DNA of 64,000 bases. Origin: Chitinibacter bivalviorum (GTDB lineage: Bacteria > Pseudomonadota > Gammaproteobacteria > Burkholderiales > Chitinibacteraceae). The DNA lies in assembly GCF_013403565.1 (NCBI RefSeq), contig NZ_CP058627.1, forward strand, positions 2,170,001-2,234,000, in the 5' to 3' direction. Positions 15,931-40,317 of this stretch are shown piece by piece (positions within the stretch are counted from its first letter, which is position 1; each line of letters starts with the position of its first letter). The notes under the pieces were generated by a model. It saw nothing but the letters and a program-made list of their open reading frames with translations, was not told the DNA's origin and searched no databases. The position numbers were made by a program, and so were the translations under genes.

Positions 15931-16522
15931 CTGTTTAAGCAACTTTTCACTCTGGCGTCTCATTGGCGCCAGTGTGTTATTTCTATTGGCCATGCAATGC
16001 TCGGCGGCGATTAAAAACCTCAAAGCCGAGGCCGAAGTTCTGCCGCCTCGCATTGAGTTGTTCGCCCGATTCAGCGTCGGACTCAATAGCGATTTGGATG
16101 AAGCGCTCAAAAATGGCCTGACCTTGCCATTTATCTATGAATTCAAACTGACCAAGCCGCGTGCTTACGCTTGGTATCGGCAAGTAGCCGATGGGTTTGG
16201 CTCCAATGCCCAGCTCACCCACCGCCTCAGCTATCAACCCCTGACCAAACAATATCGTGTCACCGCTGGTGGCGTCGTGCGACACTTTTCGAATCTGGAA
16301 GATGCGCTAACGGCGCTGGGCATTATTCGTAACTGGTCCGTCCTTGAAGGTAGCGATATCGCAGCAGATGATTTTGGCGGACGAATTCGCTTGCGACTCG
16401 ACACCTCACAACTGCCCAAAGCCTATCAAGTCAGCACCATCGGCAACGAAAATTGGCAACTCGACTCGGGTTGGAATGACATTCAATTGCGCCGATTGAC
16501 CGATTTGGAGATGCTGCAGTGA
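15890..16522 (+). CDS. DUF4390 family protein
   Basis: The 210-residue product has an N-terminal hydrophobic segment (about 21-38, LIGASVLFLLAMQCSAA) that is a signal peptide or anchor, and then a DUF4390-type domain of about 170 residues. The function is unknown. I chose the ATG pair at 15890/15893, which overlaps the end of rsmB by about 40 bases; longer in-frame starts would add more overlap. It overlaps ntrY by 4 bases. DUF4390 between rsmB and ntrY is a recurring betaproteobacterial arrangement, suggesting an accessory role for the sensor, which is inference. Confidence 0.85.
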   Translation: MMASITRCSAKSLNCLSNFSLWRLIGASVLFLLAMQCSAAIKNLKAEAEVLPPRIELFARFSVGLNSDLDEALKNGLTLPFIYEFKLTKPRAYAWYRQVADGFGSNAQLTHRLSYQPLTKQYRVTAGGVVRHFSNLEDALTALGIIRNWSVLEGSDIAADDFGGRIRLRLDTSQLPKAYQVSTIGNENWQLDSGWNDIQLRRLTDLEMLQ

Positions 16523-18645
16523 AGCGCTGGCTCCTCGTTATCGGCCTGTTAGCAACCGTTTTACTTTTCTTGCTGGCAACCGCCTCGGGTAACACGTCCC
16601 ATTTTTCCAATTATTACGGCCTGGTTCTTGGCCTCAATATTGCGCTGCTAATCGGTATGGCAGTCTTGGTGGGGAGCCGACTCACTAGGCTGATTAAACG
16701 CGTTAAACGCAAGGTATTTGGTTCGCGGCTGACACTGCGCATGGTACTGATGTTTGCCTTGGTCGCCGTACTCCCCGGAGCTCTGGTTTACACCCTCTCC
16801 GTACAGTTCTTAAATCGCTCGATCGAGGCTTGGTTTGACGTCCGGGTCGATAATGCACTGGATCGAGGCCTCAATCTTGGCCGCAATGCCATTGATTTTC
16901 AACTCAATGAGTTGGAGCGCAAGGCCACCGTCATCGCGTGGGATGTACACGATAATAGCGCAAGTACCCTACTCCCGCGCCTTTCCAAACTCCGCGAGCA
17001 AACTGGTGTCCAAGAAGTCACGCTATTTGATGACAACAATCAGCTCTACGCCAATATCGGCAATGAAAATGCGGGGCTCATCCCGCAACTCCCCTCGCGC
17101 GAATTAATCCGAGCCGCGCTGCGCGGCAGCTACAAAGACATCGAAAAAACCCCCGATAGTGGCTTAATGATGCGCGTCATCGTGCCCATGCCTGATGCTT
17201 CGATCGGTAATCGAACGCGCCTACTGCAACTATTACAACCCGTCCCGGCTCAATTGGCCCAAGATGCCGAGCTAGTCGAGCAGGTGCGTAGCGATTACAA
17301 GCAACTCTCCCAGTCTAGGCAGGGGCTAAAGATTATCTATAGCCTGACACTCACGATAGCCTTAACCATTGCCTTGCTAGGTGCGCTAGCACTGGCCATT
17401 TATCTATCGGATAAGCTAGCCGCTCCGCTGTCGGTACTGGCCGCGGGGACGCGCGCCGTCGCGCAGGGCGATTTTACGCAGCAACACCCCGTCATTAGCC
17501 GCGACGAGCTGGGGATATTGACGCACTCCTTTAATCGAATGACGCGACAGCTGGCCGACGCACGCGACAAACTCGAAGAAAATCAGGCCGAACAAGCCGA
17601 GGCCAAGGCTTATGTTGAAGCCATTCTGGGTTCTCTATCCGCCGGGGTATTGTCGTTTGATGAAGAATGGATGTTGCAATCCGCCAATCAAAGCGCCTTG
17701 CGTATTCTTGGTTTAGATCCAACGCGCATCCATGGCGAGCCACTTTCGCGCTGGAACGAAGCCTATCCTGCCCTCACGGCTTTTGCCGCGCATACCATAC
17801 ACGGTTTTTTATCCGACGAAGAAGTATGGCAACGTCAGATTGATCTGGCCGATGAAAAACGAGTCTTGCTGGTTCGCGGCACTCGCTTGACGCAAATTAT
17901 CAACGGATCAGAAGACCTGCACGGCTATGTACTGGTGTTTGACGATGTTACCGAGCTACTGTCGGCACAACGCGATGCAGCGTGGGGTGAAGTCGCTCGC
18001 CGTTTGGCGCACGAGATTAAAAATCCGCTGACACCGATACAACTATCTGCTGAACGGATGGAAATCAAACTGGCCGATAAGCTGGATCAGGCGGGCGCGG
18101 AGTTCTTAACCCGCAATACGCAAACCATCATTAAGCAGGTCGCGGCACTAAAGCAAATGGTCGATGCTTTCCGTGACTATGCGCGCAAACCATCCGGCAA
18201 AAAGAAACCGCTCGACTTTATGGCACTAGTCAAAGAAGTGCTGGTTTTATATGAAGCATCCCCCGTGATGCGCGACTTTAAAGTACACGACTCCTTGATG
18301 GTCAACGGCGATGCAACCCACTTGCGACAGGTGATTCACAACCTGTTACAGAACGCACAAGACGCAATTGCCGACGCGGAGCAAAAACAGATTTGCCTTA
18401 TTCTCGAAAAAGACGAAAAATGGGCACGTCTTTATATCGAAGACAGCGGCAAAGGCTTTCCGCCCGATTTATTGCCTCGCGTTTTTGAGCCGTATGTCAC
18501 ATCAAAAACCAAAGGCACAGGTTTGGGCTTGGCCATCGTGAAAAAAATTATTGAAGAACATCACGGGCGAGTGCAGGTGGGCAATGCCACCGGCGCTTAC
18601 GTTCGGATTGAGCTGCCGCTCTGGGAGGAAAAATTAAGTGGTTAA
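16519..18645 (+). CDS. ntrY: Sensor histidine kinase NtrY
   Basis: The 708-residue membrane kinase has two N-terminal transmembrane segments (about 5-20 and 30-50), a third near 75-95 and a fourth near 275-300 flanking a periplasmic sensor region, then HAMP (about 300-350), PAS (about 365-470), the phosphoacceptor histidine in RRLAHEIKNPLTP, and a full ATPase domain (NLLQNAQDAI, DSGKGFP, GTGLGLAI). It overlaps ntrX by 8 bases, so the pair is coupled. NtrYX systems act in nitrogen or redox-linked regulation in proteobacteria; the signal here is not known. Confidence 0.93.
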   Translation: MKRWLLVIGLLATVLLFLLATASGNTSHFSNYYGLVLGLNIALLIGMAVLVGSRLTRLIKRVKRKVFGSRLTLRMVLMFALVAVLPGALVYTLSVQFLNRSIEAWFDVRVDNALDRGLNLGRNAIDFQLNELERKATVIAWDVHDNSASTLLPRLSKLREQTGVQEVTLFDDNNQLYANIGNENAGLIPQLPSRELIRAALRGSYKDIEKTPDSGLMMRVIVPMPDASIGNRTRLLQLLQPVPAQLAQDAELVEQVRSDYKQLSQSRQGLKIIYSLTLTIALTIALLGALALAIYLSDKLAAPLSVLAAGTRAVAQGDFTQQHPVISRDELGILTHSFNRMTRQLADARDKLEENQAEQAEAKAYVEAILGSLSAGVLSFDEEWMLQSANQSALRILGLDPTRIHGEPLSRWNEAYPALTAFAAHTIHGFLSDEEVWQRQIDLADEKRVLLVRGTRLTQIINGSEDLHGYVLVFDDVTELLSAQRDAAWGEVARRLAHEIKNPLTPIQLSAERMEIKLADKLDQAGAEFLTRNTQTIIKQVAALKQMVDAFRDYARKPSGKKKPLDFMALVKEVLVLYEASPVMRDFKVHDSLMVNGDATHLRQVIHNLLQNAQDAIADAEQKQICLILEKDEKWARLYIEDSGKGFPPDLLPRVFEPYVTSKTKGTGLGLAIVKKIIEEHHGRVQVGNATGAYVRIELPLWEEKLSG

Positions 18646-28137: not shown

Positions 28138-28222
28138 GCTCGGATGGTGAAATAGGTAGACACAAGAGACTTAAAATCTCTCGCCGCAAGGTGTGCCGGT
28201 TCGATTCCGGCTCCGAGCACCA
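28138..28222 (+). tRNA. tRNA-Leu(UAA), integration target
   Basis: The 85-base gene has acceptor GCTCGGA/TCCGAGC, anticodon TAA in ACTTAAAAT, a long variable arm and an encoded CCA. Its last 14 bases recur at 40304-40317, so it is the attachment gene of the integrated element. Confidence 0.97.
28209..28222. other. attL core (end of tRNA-Leu)
   Basis: GGCTCCGAGCACCA is present here and at 40304-40317 in the same orientation. Crossing over here keeps tRNA-Leu intact. Confidence 0.85.
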
Positions 28223-28256
28223 TTACTAAGTTTTAAGCAGTACTAAGCAGCACTAC

Positions 28257-28290
28257 AAACCCGCATCAAGCCTAGCTTTGCGGGTTTTTT
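28257..28290 (+). terminator. Terminator supplied to tRNA-Leu by the element
   Basis: A stem AAACCCGCA/TGCGGGTTT with a 13-base loop runs into T6. It is element DNA but sits where the host terminator of tRNA-Leu used to be. Confidence 0.8.
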
Positions 28291-28336
28291 GTTGCCCTAA
28301 ACAATCCTAACTCATCCTAATCAAGACAATCTTTTT

Positions 28337-28358
28337 GTACCCCTTCTTGCACCCCTGC
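28337..28358. repeat. Left integrase arm-type repeat
   Basis: This 22-base sequence, with GTACCCCT and CACCCCTGC blocks, recurs with two mismatches at 40221-40242 near the other end. Two inverted AGGGGTACAT copies follow at about 28369-28395. Confidence 0.55.
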
Positions 28359-28398
28359 GATACGATACAGGGGTACATAGCGTTTAGAGGGGTACATC

Positions 28399-29634
28399 AT
28401 GCCAAAGAAAGTAGCCGCCAATCAGCTTGAGCATTTGCAGCTCGTCAATGCAAAACCAAGCGAAAAAGAAACCTATCTCAACGATGGGGCTGGCCTTTGG
28501 GTGGTGATTCACGCCGATGGCGCAAAGCGTTTTCAGTATCAATTTTCAGTACTCGGTAAGCGCGGCAAAATGTGGCTGGGCTACTTCCCCGCAATCAGTC
28601 TGGCCGAGGCTCGCCAGTTGCGCGACGAACATGCGGCCATTGTCAAACAAGGCCAAGACCCGCGCATCGCTCGCAAGATTGAGAAAATCACCCAAGCAGC
28701 CACAGCAGCAACCACCTTTGAAGCCGTGGCGCGTGAATGGCATACCAAGAAGCTCAATAGCTGGAGCGAAGATCACGGCAAGAAGATCATGGAGTCTTTA
28801 GTAGCAGACGCCTTCCCGATCTTGGGCAATATGCCAATCGCTGACATCAATTCGCCGCTAGTGCTGATGACCATCAAGAAGATTGAGGCGCGTGGCGCTG
28901 TTGAAACAGCACAGCGGATATTGCAGCGCATTGGTGCTGTCATGCGCTACGCCATGCAGACAGGCCGCACACTAACCGACCCGACATATAAGCTGGCAGA
29001 AACACTCACCGCGCCAAAAGTGGTGCACCGCCCTGCCATGCCGCGCAAAGAGCTACCCGAATACTACCGACGACTAGCCGCCGAGCCATTGCACCCGCTA
29101 ACCAAGAACGCCTTGGAATTGCTGGCCTATACCTTTGTTCGACCAGGTGAATTACGCGGGGCCAAGTGGGAAGAGTTTGATTTTGAGGAGGCAGAATGGC
29201 GTATACCTGCCGAACGCATGAAGATGCGAGCGCCGCATATCGTGCCGCTATCACGTCAAGCTCTGGCCGTGCTCGATGCATTGCGCCCCCACTCCAAAAG
29301 AAGTGCCTTTGTATTTCCTGCCCAGACTGATCACGAGAAACCCATGAGCGAAAACACTATGGGCTACGCCTTGGGGCGGATGGGCTACAAGGATATTCAC
29401 TGCCCACACGGCTTCCGCTCGCTGGCCTCTACGGTGCTGAACGAAGAAGGCTTTGACGCTGATGTAATCGAACGCCAATTAGCTCACGCCGAAAAAAACA
29501 AAGTACGTGCTGCATATCACCGCGCCCAATACCTGAAAGAGCGCCGAGCATTAATGCAGTGGTGGGCTGATTATCTGGACAGTAAAAAACCCGGGGTAAA
29601 TGTCGTGCCGTTGAATTTGAATAAAGTCGCATAA
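28399..29634 (+). CDS. Tyrosine recombinase (P4-type integrase)
   Basis: The 411-residue integrase should insert and excise the element at tRNA-Leu. It has an N-terminal arm-binding domain (about 1-95, KLGY-type; here LWVVIHADGAKRFQYQF...MWLGYFPAISLAEAR), a SAM-like core-binding domain (about 105-200) and a catalytic domain with Arg in FVRPGELRGAKW, HGFRSLAST, the second His in QLAHAEK and the nucleophile Tyr in AAYHRAQYLKERR. The gene points away from tRNA-Leu and starts 176 bases beyond attL, as is usual for this type. Confidence 0.95.
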   Translation: MPKKVAANQLEHLQLVNAKPSEKETYLNDGAGLWVVIHADGAKRFQYQFSVLGKRGKMWLGYFPAISLAEARQLRDEHAAIVKQGQDPRIARKIEKITQAATAATTFEAVAREWHTKKLNSWSEDHGKKIMESLVADAFPILGNMPIADINSPLVLMTIKKIEARGAVETAQRILQRIGAVMRYAMQTGRTLTDPTYKLAETLTAPKVVHRPAMPRKELPEYYRRLAAEPLHPLTKNALELLAYTFVRPGELRGAKWEEFDFEEAEWRIPAERMKMRAPHIVPLSRQALAVLDALRPHSKRSAFVFPAQTDHEKPMSENTMGYALGRMGYKDIHCPHGFRSLASTVLNEEGFDADVIERQLAHAEKNKVRAAYHRAQYLKERRALMQWWADYLDSKKPGVNVVPLNLNKVA

Positions 29635-30028
29635 GTCAGTTTTTATCCCAATACCTTGGGTAGTAAAAAAGGGCGTATTTCATCCAAAAACCAATTTAAA
29701 GATTTTTTTAAGGTAGTAAGTACAAACGGGGTAATTTTCAGCACTTTGGTGTGCGTTTCGCTCTCTACCCTGAAAAATAGCCTTTTTAGCTCTACTCCTC
29801 TACAACCCGCATGGATGCTGGGTTTCGAGGTAGAGGATAGAAAATTGAAATCTGTGGATAACTAGACAAACTCTACTCGTAAACCCGCGTGGTTATTGGG
29901 CTGTAGAGGAGTAGAGGATAAAAAAGTAATTTTAAGCGTTTGCCGCGCCTAGATCGGCCAATCGAAAACGGGTAACCCTGACCCGCTGGCGCTGGCAATC
30001 AATACAGGGATTACGCCTAGGGGGCGTT
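29635..30028. other. Non-coding region of the element holding one origin-like module
   Basis: No convincing gene lies in these 394 bases. They contain a degenerate palindrome (29791-29839), a TTATCCACA DnaA box on the minus strand (29853-29861), a second palindrome (29871-29920) and other CTCTAC words (near 29757-29769). The module repeats in inverted form inside the primase gene. Confidence 0.6.
29791..29920 (-). repeat. Origin-like module, copy 1
   Basis: Two palindromic repeats flank a DnaA box. Bases 29881-29920, read on the minus strand, are identical over 40 bases to 36798-36837. Arms are CCTCTAC...GTAGAGG with inner CCC...GGG, so each half can fold into a hairpin. Confidence 0.75.
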
Positions 30029-31063
30029 ATGAGTATTGCTAAAAAACATGCTGAGCAGACGAATAAATTTATATGCATGAGGGATTTAATCGTAGGACTG
30101 CAAAGAGGCTCAGAGGATGCAGTATCCCCTGAGCAAGTAGCCCAAGTCCTAATTCAGTACCTTGAAACAGATAAAAGCATGCCGACAATAGCAAAGAAAA
30201 TTGATTGGCATGACATTGATCACACCAATCCCGCTGGGATATCAAAAGCCCGCGAGTATCTTTCAAGCGTTGCTAAACACAACACTGTGGACAGCATTCT
30301 TCACAACGAAAAAAATCAATATGGCACGGACTTCGGCTTTCTGACTGATGAAATTATTAAGTTCTTAGAAGAACAGGACATCGCATATATCCCAGCCAAA
30401 ATTAAACCATTCAAGGCCGTTGCCGAACTCACCCAGCAGGAAACCATAGACCATGAATGGATTCCTGCTCACGTAAAGAGTATGCGTGTTCTCACTGCTA
30501 CGCAGGCCGCATTGGCATGGGCAGGAATCGACCCAATGCAAGTATCAACTCTTCAAAAGGCTGAACATGAAAACTGGACGGGCTGGGAGGAAGCCAAGGC
30601 ACGCAAAGCCGCAATCCTTCAAGGTTTAGCATTTGGCGAACTTCAGGCCATATCAGCCAAGGTTTTTATTGTTCGCAACAGCTTTGGTGACGGCGACGAA
30701 GAAGCAATTAACCCTGCAGAGATAAGTCCTGCCCATTTAGATCAGCTATATGAGGCCACTTTCAAAACCGGCGATATACTCAAATGGCTAGAAACCTCTC
30801 ACGAACATCACAGCCCCCACACCCAAACAAGTACGCAGCAAGCGAACACAATTCGCGGAGACACGTTTGGCAAACTAGCTGCTGCAATTGCAGCATTCCC
30901 AGATAAATACCCTAATTACCAATCAAACGCGCCACAATCCAAGGCCATTGGAGCGTGGCTTGTCGAAAGTTTTTCGTGCGGGAATATGGGTAAAAATAAC
31001 CAACTTCCAAGAGAGGCAATTGTTTTTTGCTCGATAATCAAAGAACATTTCGACCTTAAATAA
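30029..31063 (+). CDS. Hypothetical protein of the element
   Basis: The 344-residue protein is unrecognised. It is polar, without signal peptide or membrane segments. The middle has a segment (MRVLTATQAALAWAGIDP) often seen near the end of helix-rich element proteins, and the C-terminal 75 residues may form a small helical domain. The ATG follows a GGGGGCG site. It is a stand-alone transcript: a terminator follows and the alpA operon starts 167 bases later. Base composition is slightly more AT-rich than the neighbouring operon. Confidence 0.7.
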   Translation: MSIAKKHAEQTNKFICMRDLIVGLQRGSEDAVSPEQVAQVLIQYLETDKSMPTIAKKIDWHDIDHTNPAGISKAREYLSSVAKHNTVDSILHNEKNQYGTDFGFLTDEIIKFLEEQDIAYIPAKIKPFKAVAELTQQETIDHEWIPAHVKSMRVLTATQAALAWAGIDPMQVSTLQKAEHENWTGWEEAKARKAAILQGLAFGELQAISAKVFIVRNSFGDGDEEAINPAEISPAHLDQLYEATFKTGDILKWLETSHEHHSPHTQTSTQQANTIRGDTFGKLAAAIAAFPDKYPNYQSNAPQSKAIGAWLVESFSCGNMGKNNQLPREAIVFCSIIKEHFDLK

Positions 31064-31083
31064 AGAGTGTGACACTCCATGAC

Positions 31084-31110
31084 AGCCCTGATTTTTCAGG
31101 GCTTTTTCAT
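31084..31110 (+). terminator. Terminator after the 344-residue gene
   Basis: The stem AGCCCTGA/TCAGGGCT with a 3-base loop is followed by a TTTTC run. Confidence 0.8.
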
Positions 31111-31202
31111 TTTCTGCCGCACAAAAATAGACAGTACATAGCAAAAGACTGACAGCAAATAATGCTGGCTGACAGTTTTCAGCCCCTGCCAATCTAGCAC
31201 CG

Positions 31203-31226
31203 TTACTAACACGTACTAAGCGGTGC
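31203..31226. promoter_or_regulatory. Candidate AlpA-site cluster upstream of alpA
   Basis: TTACTAAC and GTACTAAGCGG lie just before alpA. Closely related words TTACTAAG (28223-28230) and GTACTAAGCAG (28240-28250) lie between attL and int. A shared regulator is inference. Confidence 0.4.
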
Positions 31227-31230
31227 AAAC

Positions 31231-31440
31231 ATGTCAGATTCATTTATCCGTATGCCGACGCTGTCCGAGATCATCGGGCTGTCTAAAAATGCGATTTACG
31301 ACCGCATGAACCCCAAAAGCCCCCGCTACGATGCCAGCTTTCCTAAGCCGGTCAAGCTTGGCTCGCACTCGATTGCGTTTCTAGAGTCCGAGGTCAAAGC
31401 GTGGATGGATGAGCGCATATCAGAACGCCAAGCGGCATAA
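31231..31440 (+). CDS. AlpA-family DNA-binding regulator
   Basis: The 69-residue protein has the AlpA/Vis-type winged helix-turn-helix: RMPTLSEIIGLSKNAIYDRM, then FPKPVKLGSHSIAFLESEVKAWM. In P4-like satellites such proteins control integrase expression or excision. It is the first gene of a packed run that goes on through the ejection-like genes and the primase. The next gene starts 12 bases after its stop. Confidence 0.88.
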   Translation: MSDSFIRMPTLSEIIGLSKNAIYDRMNPKSPRYDASFPKPVKLGSHSIAFLESEVKAWMDERISERQAA

Positions 31441-31451
31441 GGGGGGCGATC

Positions 31452-33086
31452 ATGAGTCTATTAGACTACCTCACCGGAAAGATCGACCAGAACCAAGGCG
31501 CAGCTAGAAAGATGGGCTTGCTGGATTACGCGCAGAACATGTCGAGCATGAATGACATGCCGCAGGCCATGGAGCCAGCACCAGCAATGGCTGTACCTCA
31601 ACAGCAGCCCATACCGACAGTGCAGGAAGCAGCACAGGCTCAGCCAAAAACCATGTGGGATATGCTGAACGCGCCCAAGGGCAAGGATGATGCTATGCGA
31701 TCAATGATGAGCAACCCCATGCTGCACATCGGCCTTGGCATTCTGGCGAACAATACAGGCAACTATGGGGCATTCGCCCCCGCTATTGGCCGTGGTGCAT
31801 TGCAGGGCATGAACCAAGCGCAGGAAATGCAAAGCGCCTTTACCCGCCAAGACCTTGCAGACGCTCAGCTTAACGGCATGCGCCAGCAGCAAGATAAAAC
31901 GGCACTGCGCGACAAGCTGACCGCCAATCTGGACTACACCACGCCAGAAGGCCGAAAAGCTGCGTCGGATATATTCCTTCGTCTTGGTGACCCCGAAACT
32001 GCCGACCATATCCTTAAATTTGGCCGCCCTGCTCTGGCTACTGGCATGGTTTGGGATGAAACCGAGCAAGCGCCAAAATACGACCCAAGGTACATCGAAG
32101 GGCAGGTAAAGATTGCCACAGCCAAGGCAGGTGCAAACCCGCCCAATCTGCAAGTCGTACCACCGACCACAACCACACCTGGCTACGCATTCAACCCACG
32201 TACCGGAATAGTAGAACGCATCCAAGGGCTTGATGCACGGCCAGAAGCACCGCCAAAACTGAAACCTGTTCCAGCCTCTGTGCTGCAAGCTTATACGGGG
32301 AATTCAGCGGCAATTAAGCGGATTGATGACGTTATCGCCACCATCAAGCAAAGCAACGCATCAGATCATCTGGGGATGAAAAACTATCTGCCAAGCGATT
32401 TATTGAACTACGTGGACCCTGACGGTGTGCCATTGCGCGCATCAATTGCAGATATTGGCAGCCAGATCATTCACGATCGTTCAGGCGCAGCCGTGACAGC
32501 AGCCGAATTCCCGCGACTTGCACCATTCGTACCCATTGCGACAGATAACCCCGAAACATCACTGAAAAAACTGACCGCAATGCGTGAGCGGTTGTCAGCA
32601 GAAACCGACGCTCTGACTGGGTTTTATACGCCAGACCAAGGGTTTGAAGGTATCGGAGAGCATCGCAAGCCGCCGACCGCAGCAGCACCAGCAACAACGC
32701 CAAACGCAGGAACGCCTGCACCGAATAGCCCTGCGTGGAAAGTACCAGCCGCAACGCAACAAGGCCGCGATGGTACTGCGCTACAGATCAAGCAGAACGA
32801 GTTAGCTGATCTGCAAGGTCGATTGCGAACTGCTAGCCCATCAGAAATTCCGCAGATTCAGACCGCGATCAAAGCTGTACAGCGGGAAATTAGCCGGGCA
32901 ACACCAGCACCAGCAGCACAACAGCCAGCTCCCAAAACGCAACCACAGCCGCAAGCGCAGCCATTGCCCTATTTGGCTTCAGGCAAGCCCGACACGATGC
33001 GAATGAAGCATGGGCAACTATATGTCGGCAAAGATGGTTCAAAAGGCCGTTGGAATGCCAACACACGCTCAATTGATTTGGAGTAA
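31452..33086 (+). CDS. Phage ejection/internal virion protein-like (544 residues)
   Basis: This protein resembles internal proteins of podoviruses that leave the capsid with the DNA. It has an Ala/Gln/Pro-rich N-terminus (MSLLDYLTGK; MGLLDYAQ at 21), then a segment typical of these proteins (GLGILANNTGNYGAFAPAIG, followed by ALQGMNQAQEMQ, about 92-125), a helical middle (about 280-405: IGSQIIHDRSGAAVTAAEFP, TGFYTP) and a low-complexity Ala/Gln/Pro linker near the C-terminus. It has no signal peptide. The next gene starts 7 bases later. The family call is from pattern only; it could be another structural or peptidoglycan-linked phage protein. Confidence 0.6.
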   Translation: MSLLDYLTGKIDQNQGAARKMGLLDYAQNMSSMNDMPQAMEPAPAMAVPQQQPIPTVQEAAQAQPKTMWDMLNAPKGKDDAMRSMMSNPMLHIGLGILANNTGNYGAFAPAIGRGALQGMNQAQEMQSAFTRQDLADAQLNGMRQQQDKTALRDKLTANLDYTTPEGRKAASDIFLRLGDPETADHILKFGRPALATGMVWDETEQAPKYDPRYIEGQVKIATAKAGANPPNLQVVPPTTTTPGYAFNPRTGIVERIQGLDARPEAPPKLKPVPASVLQAYTGNSAAIKRIDDVIATIKQSNASDHLGMKNYLPSDLLNYVDPDGVPLRASIADIGSQIIHDRSGAAVTAAEFPRLAPFVPIATDNPETSLKKLTAMRERLSAETDALTGFYTPDQGFEGIGEHRKPPTAAAPATTPNAGTPAPNSPAWKVPAATQQGRDGTALQIKQNELADLQGRLRTASPSEIPQIQTAIKAVQREISRATPAPAAQQPAPKTQPQPQAQPLPYLASGKPDTMRMKHGQLYVGKDGSKGRWNANTRSIDLE

Positions 33087-33092
33087 GACGCC

Positions 33093-34892
33093 ATGCCAAG
33101 AAGCATTAGTCTCGAAGAATTCAGCGGTACGGCCAGCAGCCCAACACCGCAAGCAGCCCCTAAACGCTCAATCTCACTGGATGAGTTCAGCGGGTATAAA
33201 GCGCCACAACCCGCGCAAAGCGCAGACATTGACCCCACCAAAGCCGACGGAGCCACCCTGAAGTTCGGCCCATGGGATACAGGGGTAAAGCTGGGCGATG
33301 GAACCTATCGCGCTTTAGCCGGGGCAGGTAAATTTTTCAACGACACCCAGCTTGGCGCGCGCCAGCTCACCGCACATGCGCTTGGCCTGCCCAGTGCCAG
33401 CAAGCTCGATGCTGAAGCAAATGACAATGCGGTGCGCGATGCGCCGCTGATGCGTACCAAGGCTGGGTTTGTCGGCAATTTGGCTGGTGGTGCAATTGCG
33501 ACAGCCCCACTGGGCGCAGTTCTAGGTGGTGCTCGTGTGGTGAACGCTGCACGTACTGGCCTCATGAGTGCATTGTTAGCCCCAACTGAAACATCAGCCA
33601 CACCCAGCAAAGAAGGGCTTGGCAATGGCGATTACTTTGGCAACAAGGTACTGCAAGCCGGACTAGGTGCAGGCTTGGGCGTTGTAAGTGACCGAGTCGT
33701 TAAAGGCGTAGGCAACGTAGTGCGCGGTGTCGCCGACCCTGTTGTTCAGCAGCTCAAGAATGCTGGCGTCAACATGACGGTTGGGCAGATTTTGGGCGGC
33801 TCTGCTCGTAGCATTGAAAATGGCTTAACCAGTGTGCCAATACTGGGCGACATGATCAAAGCGCGACAGGCCGACAGCATCAAAAGCTTTAATACCGGAT
33901 TTATCAATCAATCACTCGCGCCCATTGGGCAAAAGCTCGATAACGGACTTTCTGGGCATGCTGCAATTGACCAGGCAGGACAAAAGCTATCAGACGCCTA
34001 TGACGCCCTATTACCCAACTTGAAGGGCAAACTTGATCAGCCATTTCAGCAGCTACTCGGTACTGTGCGCCAGATGGGGCAAAGCATGCCTGCTGAACGC
34101 GCCGATCAGCTCAATCGGATTATTGCCAACGAGGTTGAGGGGCGGTTTACCAATGCAGGCTTAGCCTCTGGGGATACGCTTAAAAGCATCGAAAGCAAGC
34201 TGGGGGAAATTTACCGCCCTTATCAGCGCAGCAGTGACTATGACGTTAGAAATCTAGGCAATGCATTGTCTGAGGTGCAATCCGGTTTGCGCAGCATGAT
34301 CGAGCGGAATAACCCCAGCTATCAAAACCAATTGGGGCCAATCAACCAAGGTTATGCCCAGTATCTGCGTGCGCTCAATGCCTCTGCTCGTGCCGGTACG
34401 CATGAAGGCGTTTTCACTCCTGCGCAGTCACTGGCCGCCATTAAAGCGCTCGACCCAAGCAAGAACAAAGCGGCCTATGCCAAGGGCAACGCCTTGATGC
34501 AAGACTTTGCTGGTGCTGCACAGCAGATCTTGCCTTCCAACATTCCCGATAGCGGTACGGCATTCAGGCAAGCCCTGCAAATTGGCGTAGGCGGTTTAGC
34601 TGGGCTGGGTGTTAGCGGTATATCCCCTGCCCTGACCGCCGCCACGCTGGGGCTAGGACTTGGCACAGCAGGCTACAGCCGAGTAGGACAAAGCGCCGCT
34701 TCCAAGCTGCTGCTGAGCACCCCGCTGCGCTCTGCCATTGCCAACACATTCGATCAAGCGGCCAAGCCATTTGCCGCGCCTGCAACGGTCAACAGCATCA
34801 TGCCAAGCCTCATGGACATGCTGACCGAGACCGACCGCAAGAATGAACGAAAAGCCGCTAGTAAAGCCGCGCTACAAGGATTGACCCAATGA
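33093..34892 (+). CDS. Phage DNA ejection protein-like (599 residues)
   Basis: The protein has two copies of a short motif at its N-terminus (RSISLEEFSG at about 3-12 and RSISLDEFSG at about 25-34), followed by a proline-rich linker. Then come Gly/Ala-rich helices (about 120-215: GNLAGGAIATAPLGAVLGGA, AGLGAGLG), a middle with VNMTVGQILGG and long polar helices (about 225-450), and a second Gly/Ala-rich hydrophobic stretch near 490-530. This layout fits podovirus ejection proteins, which insert into the host envelope. Its stop overlaps the next start as ATGA. Confidence 0.6.
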   Translation: MPRSISLEEFSGTASSPTPQAAPKRSISLDEFSGYKAPQPAQSADIDPTKADGATLKFGPWDTGVKLGDGTYRALAGAGKFFNDTQLGARQLTAHALGLPSASKLDAEANDNAVRDAPLMRTKAGFVGNLAGGAIATAPLGAVLGGARVVNAARTGLMSALLAPTETSATPSKEGLGNGDYFGNKVLQAGLGAGLGVVSDRVVKGVGNVVRGVADPVVQQLKNAGVNMTVGQILGGSARSIENGLTSVPILGDMIKARQADSIKSFNTGFINQSLAPIGQKLDNGLSGHAAIDQAGQKLSDAYDALLPNLKGKLDQPFQQLLGTVRQMGQSMPAERADQLNRIIANEVEGRFTNAGLASGDTLKSIESKLGEIYRPYQRSSDYDVRNLGNALSEVQSGLRSMIERNNPSYQNQLGPINQGYAQYLRALNASARAGTHEGVFTPAQSLAAIKALDPSKNKAAYAKGNALMQDFAGAAQQILPSNIPDSGTAFRQALQIGVGGLAGLGVSGISPALTAATLGLGLGTAGYSRVGQSAASKLLLSTPLRSAIANTFDQAAKPFAAPATVNSIMPSLMDMLTETDRKNERKAASKAALQGLTQ

Positions 34893-35287
34893 AAAACGCC
34901 CCAGCCGTTACCGACCAGAGCGCCTTAAAGCAATGTGCCAACCAAGCACAGATCAATCATAGAACCCCAAGCCAACCCACACAAGCAAAGTGCTCGACAC
35001 TTTCCAAACTCGCCCAATCCGTAGATAATGGCCTTGCTGCGTTCAATAGCGCAGCCGAGATTGGCGTCTCGAACACGGTAGCGGACAAACCGCTAACAAA
35101 TAGCGGCTTTTTTTCGTCCGTCAACACTACTGGTGCGTCTTCTATGGCGGGTCGTAGTGGGGGCAGCTTCGGCTGCGCCGGTTCCTATCGTGCCGGTACG
35201 CCAACCTCACTACTGACCTGCCACCCTCAATTGGCGTTGAGCGGCGGGTTACTCAAACCCACGATAGGAGGCAACCACCATGCCTAG
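34889..35287 (+). CDS. Ash-family-like ORF containing a transcription attenuator
   Basis: The 132-residue reading frame overlaps both neighbours by 4 and 8 bases. Its C-terminal half (EIGVSNT, then SSMAGRSGGSFGCAGSYRAG) resembles Ash/Icd-type ORFs found in the immunity region of P4-like elements. Such frames often coincide with regulatory RNA. A terminator hairpin with a T-run sits inside it (35090-35114). It may be a real short protein, a leader, or mainly an RNA region. Confidence 0.5.
   Translation: MKNAPAVTDQSALKQCANQAQINHRTPSQPTQAKCSTLSKLAQSVDNGLAAFNSAAEIGVSNTVADKPLTNSGFFSSVNTTGASSMAGRSGGSFGCAGSYRAGTPTSLLTCHPQLALSGGLLKPTIGGNHHA
35090..35114 (+). terminator. Internal terminator / attenuator in front of the primase
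   Basis: The stem CCGCTA/TAGCGG with 5-base loop is followed by CTTTTTTT. An upstream AGCGG (about 35080) can pair with the same CCGCT, giving an alternative hairpin that would block the terminator. Confidence 0.65.
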
Positions 35288-35669
35288 CACTACGCACGCC
35301 CATACCCAGCAATCACCATTCGCATTTAATCCATTGCCCGAGACTCACCCGCTAGCCGCTGCATTGCCGCGCATGGTGGAAAGCTACGACCTAGAAGGAC
35401 AGAAGCAAACCCGAGATCTATTCAACCAGTACACGATGGGCTGCGCTGAGGGCAATCTGGCTTATCTAGTTGCGGCCAATGCTGCCGAAGGCGACCCCGC
35501 CGAGCTGGTGCTGCGTTGCCGTGATGCAATCCTTAGCCGCCTATTTGGCGACAATCAAAGCAAAGGCAGCCTGACCCCAGAGCAAGAGCGCATTCGTGCC
35601 TACATCATCGGCCTGATGGGCGATCTTGAGAACGCATTCACGCCACCTGAAAGCGAGGTGAGCGAATGA
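35280..35669 (+). CDS. Hypothetical protein upstream of the primase
   Basis: The 129-residue protein is acidic and helical, without membrane segments, and not recognised. The ATG overlaps the end of the preceding ORF and follows GGAGGCAACCACC, a strong ribosome-binding site. Its TGA overlaps the primase ATG by 4 bases, so it is coupled to the replication gene. Confidence 0.7.
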   Translation: MPSTTHAHTQQSPFAFNPLPETHPLAAALPRMVESYDLEGQKQTRDLFNQYTMGCAEGNLAYLVAANAAEGDPAELVLRCRDAILSRLFGDNQSKGSLTPEQERIRAYIIGLMGDLENAFTPPESEVSE

Positions 35670-38320
35670 ATGCACCTCAACCAATCAACCAACAATCTGA
35701 AATAGCTGCTGCATTGTCCTACGTACCAAGCCATGACCGTGACACTTGGGTACTGATGGCAATGGCCGTTAAGTCCGAGCTGGGTGAGGCTGGCTTTGAT
35801 GTCTGGGATAGCTGGAGTGCCACGGCTGAAAACTATCAATCTAAGGCCGCGAAAGCGGTCTGGAAAAGCATCGGAGCCGCTGGCAAGGTAACGATTGCCA
35901 GCTTGTTTAGCACAGCCATTCAGAACGGCTGGAAGCCTAGCAAGCCCTACACCCCGCCGACACCCGAGCAGCGCCAACAGATCGAGGCCGAGCGCCAAGC
36001 CGCACAAGCTGAGGCTGACGCACTGGCCGCACAGCAACGCGCTGAAGCATCGGCCAAAGCCAAGCAACGCTGGGAAGAAGCCAGCACGATCAATGCCGCT
36101 CACCCGTATTTAATCGCCAAGGGGATTAAGCCAATCGGAGCCAAGCAGTTTTACAAAATGCTGGTTCTGCCTCTGCGTGCCAATGGCGAGATTGTGAACC
36201 TGCAATACATCAGCGAAGACGGTACTAAACGTTTCGGCACTGGTGGGCAGGTCAAAGGCACATCACTGGTGCTGGGCAAGCTGCAAGGCGCTGCTGAGGC
36301 GCTATTGTGCGAGGGATGGGCAACCGGCTGCACACTACATGAAGCGACTGGTCTGCCAGTGGTCGTGGCATGGAATGCGGGTAACTTGGCAATGATTGCC
36401 GCCAGGCTAAGTGAAGCATTGCCAGAAATGGCTTTGCGGGTGTGTGGTGATACTGATGCCAGCGGCACAGGCCAGAAGACCGCCAGTGAAGCAGCAATCG
36501 TTCACGGCATGGCGGTATGGTGCGTTCCGGTTTTCACGCCAGAGCTGATCGAGCAGCACACCGCTCAGCACGGCAAAGTCCCTTCTGACTTCAACGACCT
36601 GCATCAATTGGTTGGGCTAGATGCTGTACGAATTCAGCTTACCAATACGATTACGCACGGCGAAAAGGTAGAGGGTAGAGTTCAGCCTAAATCGGTATCT
36701 CTACCGGAAAACGAAGAAAACAACATTTCTCAAAACGTAAGCGAAAATGACTCTACTTTGCTCTACTCAGAGTCAAACAGTTCCGAAGTAGAAATTCTAT
36801 CCTCTACTCCTCTACAGCCCAATAACCACGCGGGTTTCGAGGTAGAGGAAAGGCACTTATCCACAGGAAACGAAAATCTATCCTCTACCTGCAAACCCAA
36901 TAACGGCGCGGGTTGTAGAGGAGTAGAGGATAAACACCCATTTTTAGGGGGTATAGCAGAAACGCACGCAAACGAGGGTGAAAAAAGCCCCAAAACGGAG
37001 GACTTTGACGAAGAAGCTTACATATTACACTTGGCCAATTTAAAGCCTCTGGCCTATGAGCGAGTACGACAAGCGGCCTCTGAAGCATTGCAGACCAGAG
37101 CGAGTGTGCTAGACAAACTGGTGAATGGCGCACGGCGCGAATTGGCTGCACAGCAGGACGATGACAACAGCGGGGTATCCATCCTGTTTGATGACGTTGA
37201 ACCATGGCCTGTGCCTGTTTCCGGTGCTGCCGTGCTGGATGATGCCTTTGCGCTGATGTGCCGCTATGTCATTGCCGACAAAGAGACTATTCGAGCAGCA
37301 ACGCTTTGGACCGCATTAACGTGGTTTGTCGAATACGCGACAGTAATGCCCTTGGCGCTGATTACCGCGCCTGAGAAAAACTGCGGTAAATCGACCTTGC
37401 TCAATGTGCTGGCTAAGCTCTCCAGCCGACCTATTTGGGCTTCAAACATCACCCCCGCAGCCTTATTCCGTGCTGTTGAAAAGTGGAAGCCTTCGCTGTT
37501 TATCGATGAGGCCGACACCTTTATGCGAGACAGCCCCGAGTTGGTCGGCATTATCAACAGCGGCCACACTAGAGACACTGCGTATGTGATTCGCACTGTG
37601 GGCGATGAGCACGAGCCACGGACGTTTGTAACGTGGGGCGCAAAGGCCATTAGCGGGATTGGTGCGCATGGCGTAGCCGATACGATCACCAGCCGCTCAG
37701 TCATTCTGATGATGCGCCGCAAGCTCAAAGGCGAGCGCTGCGAGAATATGCGGCACTACGACCGAGAAGCCTTTGCGATGGTAAAGCGCCAATTTGCTCG
37801 TTGGGCTGATGACAATGGCGAGAACTTCGCAACGATGCGCCCTGAGTTGGACGGATTACACAACCGCACTGCCGACAATTGGGAGCCGCTACTAGCGATT
37901 GCTGACCTTGCTGGTGGGGATTGGCCGAAACAAGCACGCTTGGCAGCGCACAAGCTCACCCATACCGAAGACGATGCGCAAAGCATCAACCAAGAGCTGC
38001 TTGGCGACATTCGTGCAGCATTTGAACGAACGCGCACCGACAAGTTGCACACCTCTGTATTGCTTGAGGAGCTTTGCAAAGACGAGGAATCGGCATGGGC
38101 CACCTATAACCGAGGCCGTCCAGTCACTGCACGGCAACTCTCAAAACGAGTCGCAGAGTTTGGCGTGAAGGCAAGGCAGCTCAAGATTGATTTTGCAAAC
38201 CGCAACGGTTACGAGCTAGCCGACTTTAAGGACGCCTTTGCCCGTTATCTCAGCAATGAGCCCGTACCAGCACAAACCAGCGCAGCACGACATGAGGGTG
38301 ATGACTATGAACTCTTCTGA
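35666..38320 (+). CDS. Element primase-helicase (PriCT_2 - Toprim - DUF3631)
   Basis: This 884-residue protein is the probable replication initiator. It has a PriCT_2-like N-terminus (about 10-90), a zinc-free Toprim region (about 150-300: LLCEGWATG, VVAWNAGNL, RVCGDTDASG) and a DUF3631-like helicase part (about 510-870) with Walker A APEKNCGKSTLL, Walker B-like LFIDEADTF and a sensor segment TWGAKAISGIG. A linker of about 50 residues (residues 378-423) is encoded by the origin-like repeat at 36798-36932. It resembles the alpha protein of P4 in role, though the domains differ. Confidence 0.85.
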   Translation: MNAPQPINQQSEIAAALSYVPSHDRDTWVLMAMAVKSELGEAGFDVWDSWSATAENYQSKAAKAVWKSIGAAGKVTIASLFSTAIQNGWKPSKPYTPPTPEQRQQIEAERQAAQAEADALAAQQRAEASAKAKQRWEEASTINAAHPYLIAKGIKPIGAKQFYKMLVLPLRANGEIVNLQYISEDGTKRFGTGGQVKGTSLVLGKLQGAAEALLCEGWATGCTLHEATGLPVVVAWNAGNLAMIAARLSEALPEMALRVCGDTDASGTGQKTASEAAIVHGMAVWCVPVFTPELIEQHTAQHGKVPSDFNDLHQLVGLDAVRIQLTNTITHGEKVEGRVQPKSVSLPENEENNISQNVSENDSTLLYSESNSSEVEILSSTPLQPNNHAGFEVEERHLSTGNENLSSTCKPNNGAGCRGVEDKHPFLGGIAETHANEGEKSPKTEDFDEEAYILHLANLKPLAYERVRQAASEALQTRASVLDKLVNGARRELAAQQDDDNSGVSILFDDVEPWPVPVSGAAVLDDAFALMCRYVIADKETIRAATLWTALTWFVEYATVMPLALITAPEKNCGKSTLLNVLAKLSSRPIWASNITPAALFRAVEKWKPSLFIDEADTFMRDSPELVGIINSGHTRDTAYVIRTVGDEHEPRTFVTWGAKAISGIGAHGVADTITSRSVILMMRRKLKGERCENMRHYDREAFAMVKRQFARWADDNGENFATMRPELDGLHNRTADNWEPLLAIADLAGGDWPKQARLAAHKLTHTEDDAQSINQELLGDIRAAFERTRTDKLHTSVLLEELCKDEESAWATYNRGRPVTARQLSKRVAEFGVKARQLKIDFANRNGYELADFKDAFARYLSNEPVPAQTSAARHEGDDYELF
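36798..36932 (+). repeat. Origin-like module, copy 2, inside the primase gene
   Basis: Palindrome (36798-36849), DnaA box TTATCCACA (36857-36865) and palindrome (36879-36932) repeat copy 1 (29791-29920) in inverted orientation. The module is in frame with the primase and translates as SSTPLQPNNHAGFEVEE and similar. Confidence 0.75.
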
Positions 38321-39071
38321 TCTTCTTGATGTACTGACCGAGGCAGGCTTATCACTGTCACTCAATGACGATGGCGCACTGAAAGTCACGCCCAAGCCAA
38401 GCCCTGAGCAGTCAGCTTTAATCCGAGCGCACAAGCCCGAGCTGGTGAAACAACTGCAAGGGGGATGGCTGCATATTGCCGATGTGCTTACCGCGGTCAC
38501 TGCTGGTGCTGCACTCAAGAGCATTGGTATTGATACCGAGGTGACGCACTGGCGCTGGCAGGTCACCGGACCAGACGGGGAGTGCCGAGAGGTGCGATGC
38601 CTGCCTGAACCAACCGAGCAGGCCATGCGGGAGCGCTACCCTGATTGCAAGATTGAAGCCCTTCCCGATGATGAGCCATTACCAACCAGTGCAAATTCTG
38701 CATTAGTTGCGACAGACATCAATCTTGATGGCAGCTACGACGAACCCGACCCGCCTGAATGGGAAGGACTATCTGACATGCGCCGTTATCAGTTGCGCCG
38801 TGCTCGTGGCTACGACAATCAGCAAGCCACCAAACAAGCGCTGGCTGCGACAAAGGCGCTGGCTGAGAGTGCAATGAATGATTTGCACACCACTTTGGCC
38901 GACCAGACCCACCAGATCAAAACCCCTGCGAGATTTGTTGACGTGGGCAATTTGCCGATCGGTACGCCGTGTGTATTCAGCAAGATGGTTGGGCAGGATG
39001 AAATGACAGGAAAACGCCGGCTCGTACCGTTCGGAATGCTAAGAGAGGTGAAAAAGAATGACCCCATTTGA
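38307..39071 (+). CDS. TubC-N-like domain protein of the element
   Basis: The 254-residue protein begins with about 55 residues that resemble the TubC N-terminal docking fold (LLDVLTEAGLSLSLNDDG, ALIRAHKPELVKQL), common in element genes next to primases. The rest is polar and unrecognised. I chose the ATG at 38307, 8 bases after GAGGG; ATGs at 38301 and 38292 are alternatives. It overlaps the primase end by 14 bases. Confidence 0.72.
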   Translation: MNSSDLLDVLTEAGLSLSLNDDGALKVTPKPSPEQSALIRAHKPELVKQLQGGWLHIADVLTAVTAGAALKSIGIDTEVTHWRWQVTGPDGECREVRCLPEPTEQAMRERYPDCKIEALPDDEPLPTSANSALVATDINLDGSYDEPDPPEWEGLSDMRRYQLRRARGYDNQQATKQALAATKALAESAMNDLHTTLADQTHQIKTPARFVDVGNLPIGTPCVFSKMVGQDEMTGKRRLVPFGMLREVKKNDPI

Positions 39072-39390
39072 AAGAGATCGATTTGAGACTGCCCTGCTTC
39101 AGTATTCGGAAGCACTTGAATTACATGGTGATGAGAGTGACGAAGCAATCGAAAGCCTGATCACCGTGTTTATGTGCGCACCTCCCGAGTTTTTGGAGGG
39201 TGCGCTGGCAATTTCAAAGCATCTGCAACAACTGCCTACACCACGCGCCTTTAACGACAATAACCAGCCACTCTATGAAATTGCCGATGTTGCAAAGCTA
39301 CTCAATATTGACGAAGAAAAAGCAATTGCTGCATTTCATCGACTCCACAGAGAGCAGCCACAAGAGCTGCCAGTGCATCTGGTTCAGTGA
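39058..39390 (+). CDS. Hypothetical small protein of the element
   Basis: The 110-residue acidic protein overlaps the preceding gene by 14 bases; an AGAGAGGTG site lies before the ATG. Residues 70-100 (LYEIADVAKLLNIDEEKAIA) look like a helix-turn-helix-type fold. Function unknown. Confidence 0.65.
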   Translation: MTPFERDRFETALLQYSEALELHGDESDEAIESLITVFMCAPPEFLEGALAISKHLQQLPTPRAFNDNNQPLYEIADVAKLLNIDEEKAIAAFHRLHREQPQELPVHLVQ

Positions 39391-39399
39391 GGGATATGC

Positions 39400-39876
39400 G
39401 TGAAATTCAGCTCAATTCAAAGCCTGATCGGCTGGGCGTTTCAAATGGATGGCATACCGAATTGCCGTGCGCAGCAGTTCGGAGACCTTCCGCCTGGTAT
39501 GTCCGAATTTTCAATTTATGACCTAAAAGTACAAGCGGCACTCGTTCTAGACAAGGTAAACAAACTGCCTTCAACAGAGCGCGCCCTTATTTGGGTATTG
39601 CACCTTCAGCGAGAAACGGAGATGCGCTATCTGGCCGACAAAACCCCGGGCAAATACGGCATACAAACCGATGTGGATTTAATTCGGAAGTGGACAACCG
39701 GCAAGGGGCATAGCTGCCGTGAAATTGGCGAAAGGCACAACATCAGTGCCACAACTGCTGGACGTTATGAGCGCAAGCTGCAAGAGCTGCTGGATGGATG
39801 GGCGTATCTGGCCTATGCGACGTTGGAGATTCAACACAGGGCAATGCTAGACGAGCTTTTTTATGGGGGAGATTAG
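39400..39876 (+). CDS. Putative helix-turn-helix protein of the element
   Basis: The 158-residue protein starts at a GTG six bases after GAGGGA. Residues 105-130 (GHSCREIGERHNISATTAGR) form a clear helix-turn-helix, as in late-gene activators and antiterminators of phages. It is the last gene of the alpA-primase operon, so it may control late functions or a helper phage, which is inference. Confidence 0.65.
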   Translation: MKFSSIQSLIGWAFQMDGIPNCRAQQFGDLPPGMSEFSIYDLKVQAALVLDKVNKLPSTERALIWVLHLQRETEMRYLADKTPGKYGIQTDVDLIRKWTTGKGHSCREIGERHNISATTAGRYERKLQELLDGWAYLAYATLEIQHRAMLDELFYGGD

Positions 39877-39887
39877 GACTTATGCGG

Positions 39888-40005
39888 CAAGTACGCGCGT
39901 GCGCGCGAGAAGGTACTTTTGGCACAAGTACGCGCGCGTGCGCGAGGCGTTACTTTCCATGTACAAGGCAAGGAATACGCGGAGCAATACGCGCGCGCAC
40001 GCGAG
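39888..40005. repeat. Three alternating purine-pyrimidine CG repeats
   Basis: Copies at about 39888-39909, 39925-39946 and 39986-40005 read CAA(G)TACGCGCG followed by (C)GYGCGCGAG. Alternating CG of this length can adopt Z-DNA. Confidence 0.7.
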
Positions 40006-40220
40006 GCTAGGCACAGTGCGAAAACAGCAAGCTCTATTGGCGCACGCCTGTTAACAAATGTTGACATACCTGACACCTGAAAAAAGAGGAGTCCAAGCCC
40101 TGTAGCTTCAATCTACTGCCAGCGAAAAAACTGGCAAACAACGGGAGGGCTAAGGGTGCGCCGAATGAATAAATTGCCGTTGCTTGGAGGGGTAAAAAAA
40201 GCCCCTAGCACTTTGGTTAT

Positions 40221-40242
40221 GTACCCCTGCTTTCACCCCTGC
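40221..40242. repeat. Right integrase arm-type repeat
   Basis: It matches 28337-28358 at 20 of 22 positions in the same orientation, about 60 bases inside attR. Confidence 0.55.
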
Positions 40243-40303
40243 TAGCAAAAAATCAAACGAACAACCAAGCAAATATGCGGCTTTCAAGCCACATTGTGAT
40301 AGA

Positions 40304-40317
40304 GGCTCCGAGCACCA
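40304..40317. other. attR core
   Basis: GGCTCCGAGCACCA is identical to the end of tRNA-Leu. It is not part of a complete tRNA here. Confidence 0.85.

Follow-up and report, generated by a model that had tools for sequence, protein, structure and literature searches.

Phage satellites are known to alter capsid size, divert packaging or change the expression of helper genes. P4-like satellites have a C4/CI-type antisense RNA before the primase gene and carry the capsid-size gene sid and the late genes psu and delta, and capsid-forming phage-inducible chromosomal islands (PICIs) are defined by capsid genes of their own. Induction of the P22-like phage Kapi1 leads to excision and transfer of EcCIMP1, a phage-inducible chromosomal island of Escherichia coli MP1 (PMC11773190). 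Here we analyse a 64,000-nucleotide stretch of the Chitinibacter bivalviorum chromosome (NZ_CP058627.1, positions 2,170,001 to 2,234,000; hereafter the window), which contains a 12.1-kb integrated element (28209–40317) flanked by a 14-bp repeat. Two adjacent genes of this element, EJ1 and EJ2, encode proteins that we assign to podovirus ejection or internal-protein families on the basis of synteny, annotated phage relatives and a prophage in the same chromosome. Short-tailed phages probably use these two proteins to push DNA through the cell envelope. We propose, with a probability of about two in three, that satellites such as this one equip helper particles with a matched ejection pair that they encode themselves.

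An initial annotation had placed two open reading frames (ORFs) of 544 and 599 residues at this position and read them as internal virion or ejection-like proteins. Both are present and open, and the three lines of evidence named above uphold that identity. Relatives of EJ1 and EJ2 are adjacent genes after gp4- and gp10-like genes in podovirus late operons, and they occupy the ejection-protein place of P22-type genomes. Relatives of EJ2 are labelled ‘lytic transglycosylase’ in a Microcystis phage and ‘DNA ejection protein’ in C72C1, and hypothetical in Rhodoferax P26218 (where the gene follows a gp10-like gene) and two Manatee Spring records; in MW202713 the EJ1 relative directly precedes a ‘DNA injection protein’. 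Protein database searches, with 8000 candidates scored for each query, gave at least 112 matches for EJ1 and at least 660 for EJ2 (query included), and an SLT transglycosylase domain is present in 14 of 120 EJ2 matches among those listed. A scan of viral contigs with an EJ2 alignment confirmed at least 502 stretches. Among the best 80 of 502 loci, a gp10-like gene is found in 55 and EJ1 precedes EJ2 in 21 (59 and 11, respectively, on a recount with later models), and none has the satellite primase, AlpA or the 344-aa protein of the element; the recount again gave no satellite primase or AlpA.

The prophage in the same chromosome, at ∼1.05–1.08 Mb, has genes for a large terminase (phrog_3717), a portal (phrog_1216), two virion proteins (phrog_2941 and phrog_3287, which we read as gp4- and gp10-like) and a ‘DNA ejection protein’ (phrog_4287), and its scaffold and coat are candidates by position. 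After these genes come a 580-aa EJ1 relative, a 740-aa EJ2 relative and a tail fibre. EJ1 and the prophage protein have 51% identity over residues 3–193 and 36% in a low-complexity stretch at the C-terminus; the middle of EJ1 is a widespread core with the motif HDRSGAAVTA (conserved over residues ∼268–399), unlike the prophage protein. When EJ1 residues 1–205 were used as a query, 19 proteins including the query were returned, of which the prophage protein covers 93% at 51% identity (E=1.8e-47) and the other 17 cover 14–53% with E values of 2.8e-11 or above. EJ2 is 36% identical to its prophage counterpart over the first 193 residues, beyond which no comparable match to that protein was found. 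The element thus has end parts in common with a resident-type podovirus, and the bodies differ.

By gene content, we class the element as a phage satellite of the PICI/P4-like kind: it has an integrase and att repeats at a tRNA gene, AlpA and its own primase, and it lacks a gene for a capsid, portal or large terminase. Ten of its ORFs were compared with Pfam and PHROGs at E≤1, and a further 110-aa ORF with PHROGs. No credible head, portal, tail or terminase match was found among the ORFs scanned, which agrees with the earlier claim that no capsid or tail gene is present and separates the element from capsid-forming PICIs. The weak matches with phage-structural names were a terminase family for the integrase (0.22), a ‘DNA ejection’ family for the 277-aa ORF (0.13) and a holin family for EJ2 (0.52). 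A stray prophage remnant is ruled out by the att boundaries, the open frames and the recurrence of the layout, and the two genes are part of the element, as first stated.

A scan with an EJ1 alignment of one genome per species (84,980 species) matched 45 stretches, and 10 loci were confirmed. Two are prophages with coat, gp4- and gp10-like genes, in metagenome-assembled genomes (MAGs) of Polaromonas (L112) and Reyranella (L121). The other eight combine an integrase with EJ1 and lack coat, gp4- or gp10-like genes: Rugamonas rubra (L113; DnaB helicase, 9.8e-83), a Ramlibacter MAG (L114; partial integrase at the contig end), Aquabacterium (L115; abutting the 3′ end of a transfer-messenger RNA gene), two loci of Aquabacterium soli (L116, and L117 with a partial integrase at the contig end), Variovorax boronicumulans (L118), a Burkholderiales MAG (L119; PriCT-2 and AAA_25 with a weak SSB match) and Herminiimonas (L120; AAA_25 and a primosomal protein). 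AlpA was called in three of the eight (L113, L116 and L119) and an int-alpA RNA is present in L114, L118 and L120; the candidate replication ORFs of L116, L117 and L118 have no Pfam match. EJ2 follows EJ1 in seven of the eight, and in L117 the contig stops where EJ2 is expected. Wherever EJ1 was called in phage loci, the counterparts of the satellite EJ2s lie directly downstream of it (L113, 6/6; L114, 3/3; L115, 13/13; L116, 14/14; L118, 8/8; L120, 8/8), as does the one such case of the two matches to the L119 protein (1/1); for the window EJ2 the count is 29/31. No match to EJ1 was found in the plasmid collection.

A larger prophage with overlooked capsid genes is ruled out, among the matches listed, by scans of these loci and of L111, a 13.9-kb contig that encodes an AAA_25 protein, an SSB and an EJ2 with 13 phage matches. 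The scans covered 86 ORFs of L111 and L113–L120 outside integrase, AlpA and the EJ genes (PHROGs and Pfam), followed by a repeat PHROG scan of 65 ORFs (60 of these loci, five of the window). The best 25 of 88 and then 25 of 29 PHROG families concern replication, antirepressors, toxin/antitoxin, HNH, excisionase, unknown functions, small terminase and tail fibre. The two small-terminase families match part of a single 87-aa ORF (L120, 14062–14325), and the two tail-fibre families match one ORF of L118; Pfam adds an SLT domain to the list. L118 (12605–14579) also encodes a protein homologous to phage ‘short tail fiber’ families (phrog_12032) and, after EJ2, a 225-aa protein with a phage relative. 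In L113, a second satellite-like stretch (15496–18539) adjoins the Rugamonas element, with a profile match to the helicase-type protein of L111 and a C4 RNA.

A tree of the EJ1 core was built by a quick method from 75 rows, nine of them satellite rows; 17 EJ1 rows that lack the core pattern (L119 among them) are omitted, and L164, which duplicates L113, has a row of its own. The satellite rows need six label changes between phage and satellite, at least four of which are forced by well-supported branches. Since label changes are gains or losses, the tree shows that EJ1 has been exchanged repeatedly between phages and satellites, most simply by repeated capture. A short N-terminal motif is often doubled in EJ2-type proteins of phages and satellites, in 8 of 10 named cases at 0/100 shuffles (L111 and a small SLT protein of L120 lack it) and in 49 of 111 family members at no more than 1/40 shuffles, and is a possible head-docking signal. 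Examples of the doubling are residues 5–12 and 27–34 of the window EJ2 and GPWxxFQ-like motifs that occur twice in L113 and L119.

EJ2 was found in one of 43 host-family genomes, that of the window, and primase relatives in six, the window's included. The EJ genes are also absent from 13 further primase-bearing loci read in the order (L097–L109). Across the 399 genomes of the order, the EJ2 profile matches three and the primase 63, although that profile missed the resident prophage copy and is of limited sensitivity. The initial annotation had tied its proposal to the presence of the genes in other copies of the element. The closest primase relatives read lack the pair, which on this comparison is an accessory trait, dispensable for this replication lineage, and the layout recurs in elements with other replication genes.

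A similar arrangement is found in E. coli. In RefSeq, the primase gene of EcCIMP1 is followed by genes for a DUF2824 protein, a 225-aa protein, a ‘phage DNA ejection protein’ and a 906-aa ‘lytic transglycosylase’, in the order of Kapi1_055–058. Unlike EJ1 and EJ2, these proteins match curated ejection families (phrog_917, ‘released from the phage upon host infection’, 3.3e-44; phrog_770, ‘DNA transfer protein’, 3.7e-120). Identity to Kapi1 falls from 83% for gp14 and 57% for gp7 to 26% for gp20 (residues 1–298) and 24% for gp16 (residues 397–897). A similar satellite at another site in E. coli P393-F10 has gp14 and gp7 proteins 98–99.6% identical to those of EcCIMP1; its gp20 is 48% identical over the first 187 residues only and its gp16 has no detectable similarity, and the gp20/gp16 pair differs as a unit between the two satellites. 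We surveyed 5426 complete E. coli genomes: 69 have the EcCIMP1 cassette at ≥80% coverage, 297 the second gp20/gp16 pair (prophage copies included) and 350 the DUF2824-to-primase stretch at ≥80% (some without DUF2824). EJ1 and EJ2 have no BLASTP similarity to the E. coli cassette proteins at 1e-3. This makes convergence likelier than descent as the origin of what appear to be like arrangements of different protein families.

Experiments on P22 fit a matched pair with compatible N-termini and exchanged bodies, and it is from them that the loading proposal is drawn. P22 hybrids that carry foreign ejection proteins are viable, with essentially normal yields, and their virions contain these proteins; gp16 and gp20 must match, since Sf6 gp16 or gp20 alone is non-functional in P22 and the pair works (PMC10883804). 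The prophage protein SieA blocks P22 DNA injection, mutations that escape it map to the C-terminal regions of both gp16 and gp20, and the ejection proteins of HK620 partly resist SieA, whereas the Sf6, L and CUS-3 sets do not (PMC10883804). We infer loading, excision, conduit function and benefit as follows. On helper induction the satellite would excise and replicate with its own primase, and a podovirus helper would package it, perhaps from three terS-like sites at its 3′ end. EJ1 and EJ2 would enter the helper procapsid via the N-terminal parts that match the resident podovirus prophage, and at infection would build a trans-envelope conduit for satellite DNA. The likeliest benefit would be entry independent of the helper's gp16- and gp20-type proteins, the targets of superinfection exclusion of the SieA kind: the satellite would need recipients that carry the helper, which are the cells that exclude helper particles, and helper lysogens would be the first gain. 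Extended further, and tentatively, the data may reflect a convergent class of podovirus satellites that form mixed particles of helper capsid and tail with a satellite-encoded conduit, in which N-termini are kept compatible with the helper head and envelope-facing bodies are exchanged as a matched pair, giving entry above all into helper lysogens whose exclusion proteins block the helper conduit.

The foremost rival is interference, in which excess EJ proteins replace those of the helper, helper virions become non-infectious and satellite particles tolerate the mixture. P22 virions with mismatched gp16 or gp20 do assemble and are non-infectious (PMC10883804), and satellites commonly restrict their helpers (PMC11773190). 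However, one mismatched protein would suffice for this, whereas both are present in eight of nine EJ1 elements (the window, L113–L116 and L118–L120; the L117 contig ends), the E. coli pair changes as a unit, and EcCIMP1 left Kapi1 titres unaltered (PMC11773190); we therefore regard interference as unlikely. A role in satellite capsid assembly or DNA packaging, as the EcCIMP1 authors proposed for three of the cassette genes, seems less likely still. Ejection proteins are packaged in the procapsid (PMC8954989) and EcCIMP1 has the gp14-like DUF2824 gene as well, but divergence is greatest in the gp20/gp16-like pair, the P22 counterparts of that pair function in DNA injection, and yields of P22 carrying foreign sets are essentially normal (PMC10883804). 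That the genes are functionless passengers from recombination with a phage late operon is the least probable reading, despite their absence from the same-primase sister elements read and one frameshifted E. coli copy, for their frames are open in the window element and in eight others (one cut short at its contig end), the tree has at least four label changes, and the adjacent order is kept with few other late genes seen (L118).

Several observations weigh against loading of a satellite-encoded pair. The profile and structure matches to which the initial annotation looked did not appear: EJ1 and EJ2 have no Pfam or PHROG match at a useful E value and no place in a curated ejection family, and the AlphaFold model of EJ2 (helical, mean predicted local distance difference test score 75.4, block means of 87–98 over residues 221–480) has no PDB match at E≤0.001. 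The EJ genes are missing from the four sister elements read (L013–L016), which implies that the pair is dispensable in that replication lineage, and a gp16-like gene is annotated as frameshifted in one E. coli genome opened. Convincing att repeats were found in two of the seven elements searched (the window, L113, L115, L116 and L118–L120), namely the window element and L119 (a 17-bp repeat at the end of a tRNA-Gly gene); L113 and L118 have 13–14-bp matches of unclear meaning, and L115, L116 and L120 none. L111 is the weakest case: its EJ1 is assigned by position only (0 matches), no integrase was recognised among its ORFs read, and of the 2 loci of its EJ2 relatives in which EJ1 was called, 0 have the relative directly after EJ1. 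In a survey for a helper portal, phrog_1216 was found in 2 of 11 genomes, one weakly (3.9e-7), by a test that missed the L112 and L121 prophages. Finally, the TerS site of the resident prophage is 4 bp shorter than the three copies in the element, and thus this prophage may not be the real helper, which may be another phage.

Features of the integrated element (window coordinates)
Feature	Position	Strand	Evidence or remark
attL	28209–28222	+	14-bp core GGCTCCGAGCACCA, 3′ end of tRNA-Leu(taa) 28138–28222
Tyrosine integrase, 411 aa	28399–29634	+	PF00589 1.2e-23; PF22022 6.5e-33
int-alpA RNA	29942–30009	+	Rfam RF02996, 49.5 bits (cut-off 35.8)
344-aa protein	30029–31063	+	no useful family match (Pfam, PHROGs)
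AlpA regulator	31231–31440	+	PF05930, E 1.7e-14
EJ1, 544 aa, first ejection-type protein	31452–33086	+	conserved core; ends common to resident prophage protein
EJ2, 599 aa, second ejection-type protein	33093–34892	+	N-terminal doubled motif ISLEEFSG/ISLDEFSG, helical body
C4 antisense RNA	35140–35228	+	Rfam RF01695, 76.6 bits (cut-off 45)
129-aa protein	35280–35669	+	no family (Pfam, PHROGs)
Primase-helicase	35666–38320	+	DUF3631 2e-50; PriCT_2 1.5e-16; Toprim_3 1.9e-6
277-aa ORF	38238–39071	+	start at 38307 looks likelier; short similarity to post-primase gene in sisters L013, L098
110-aa ORF	39058–39390	+	no PHROG match
Helix-turn-helix-like protein, 158 aa	39400–39876	+	48% identity over 152 aa to prophage gene directly upstream of small terminase gene
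terS-type DNA motif, three copies (39891, 39928, 39987)	39891–40010	+	candidate packaging site
attR	40304–40317	+	14-bp core

The gap between alpA and EJ1 is 11 nucleotides and that between EJ1 and EJ2 is 6; EJ2 overlaps the following small ORF (34889–35287) by 4 nucleotides. This ORF overlaps the C4 antisense RNA, which we take to be an immunity RNA of P4/P1 type, and its relative in the sister element L013 overlaps a C4 RNA too, so that their similarity probably reflects the RNA. The ORF is thus probably not a gene, and the RNA likely marks an immunity locus that separates EJ1 and EJ2 from the primase operon. The two genes sit between alpA and this locus and the replication operon begins after it, which corrects the initial description of the pair as embedded in the replication operon. 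The C4 RNA is preceded by an isrK-like match below cut-off (35036–35113) and by a terminator-like hairpin (35090–35106), one of 12 such sites in a region where shuffles give 8.8. Inverted repeated GGGTTGTAGAGGAGTAGAGG-type units occur at 29767–29939, before the 344-aa gene, and at 36791–36946, inside the primase gene; the two sets are 7012 bases apart and in register, and the units are possibly replication-origin sites.

The terS-type motif, given by the regular expression [AG]TACGCGC, 2–11 bases, GCGAG[AG], occurs three times within 120 bp at the 3′ end of the element and nowhere else in the window. It is found once in the small terminase gene of the resident prophage and one to two times in three (L013, L097 and L100) of 17 sister satellites examined. 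The 3.0 Mb of fetched loci contain one more copy, in L082, and 100 Markov-control windows of 64 kb contained 2 matches. In a 22-base form with up to two mismatches, the window genome has just the element's three matches; such loose matches are common elsewhere in the order (88 of 399 genomes in all), where the reversed control matches too and the form is not specific. A close form has 35 exact matches in viral contigs, 33 of them in genes similar to the prophage small terminase (E<1e-8) that encode QYARAREA or KYARAREA there. A tblastn search with the small terminase at E≤10 gave no match in the window element, L097 or L100, and one in L013 at 6.6, elsewhere; the motif copies therefore do not belong to a small terminase gene of this type. 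In P22-type phages the pac site is located within the small terminase gene, and the simplest reading is that the copies are candidate packaging sites copied from helper phages. In primase-type satellites they lie downstream of the primase gene (L013 5696, minus strand; L097 15121; L100 11527 and 11690). The motif is absent from L111 and L113–L120, and thus is not part of the shared ejection layout.

Satellite-supplied DNA-entry machinery would, if confirmed, add a further control point, events in the recipient cell, and would provide satellites of short-tailed phages with a possible way into excluded or different hosts. EJ1 and EJ2 also provide a marker gene pair for finding podovirus satellites. 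The same arrangement exists in commensal E. coli in EcCIMP1, whose helper Kapi1 is known, and its purpose is therefore testable now.

The claim that no described system has this layout stands in part. Among the matches listed, no open PMC title or abstract describes satellites carrying ejection proteins as such; EcCIMP1 carries such genes (PMC11773190) and is the one precedent found, in which the genes are present and were read otherwise. The P22/Sf6 proteins gp7, gp20 and gp16 resemble the EJ relatives in their position after gp4/gp10, as large adjacent proteins, some with a transglycosylase domain; unlike that set, the element's set consists of two large proteins only, with no direct profile match to P22 families. 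P4-like satellites have in common with the element an integrase, AlpA, a Toprim primase and a C4-type RNA upstream of the primase gene, and differ in that the element carries ejection genes; no sid-, psu- or delta-type family was found at E≤1 in the general scans of ten ORFs, which included no dedicated search. The satellite AH14b of Pseudomonas ANT_H14 likewise has a P4-like integrase, AlpA and primase, together with a helper-like tail-assembly gene, whereas its helper is predicted to be of siphovirus type and its published text uses neither ‘ejection’ nor ‘injection’ (PMC4936722). EcCIMP1 has an integrase, AlpA and a primase, lacks capsid and terminase genes and carries gp14/gp7/gp20/gp16-like genes of the type of its P22-like helper. 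The available text of its authors calls three of these genes packaging candidates, not ejection proteins, and does not contain the word ‘ejection’ (PMC11773190). The EcCIMP1 cassette follows the primase gene, whereas the pair in the window lies between alpA and the immunity locus.

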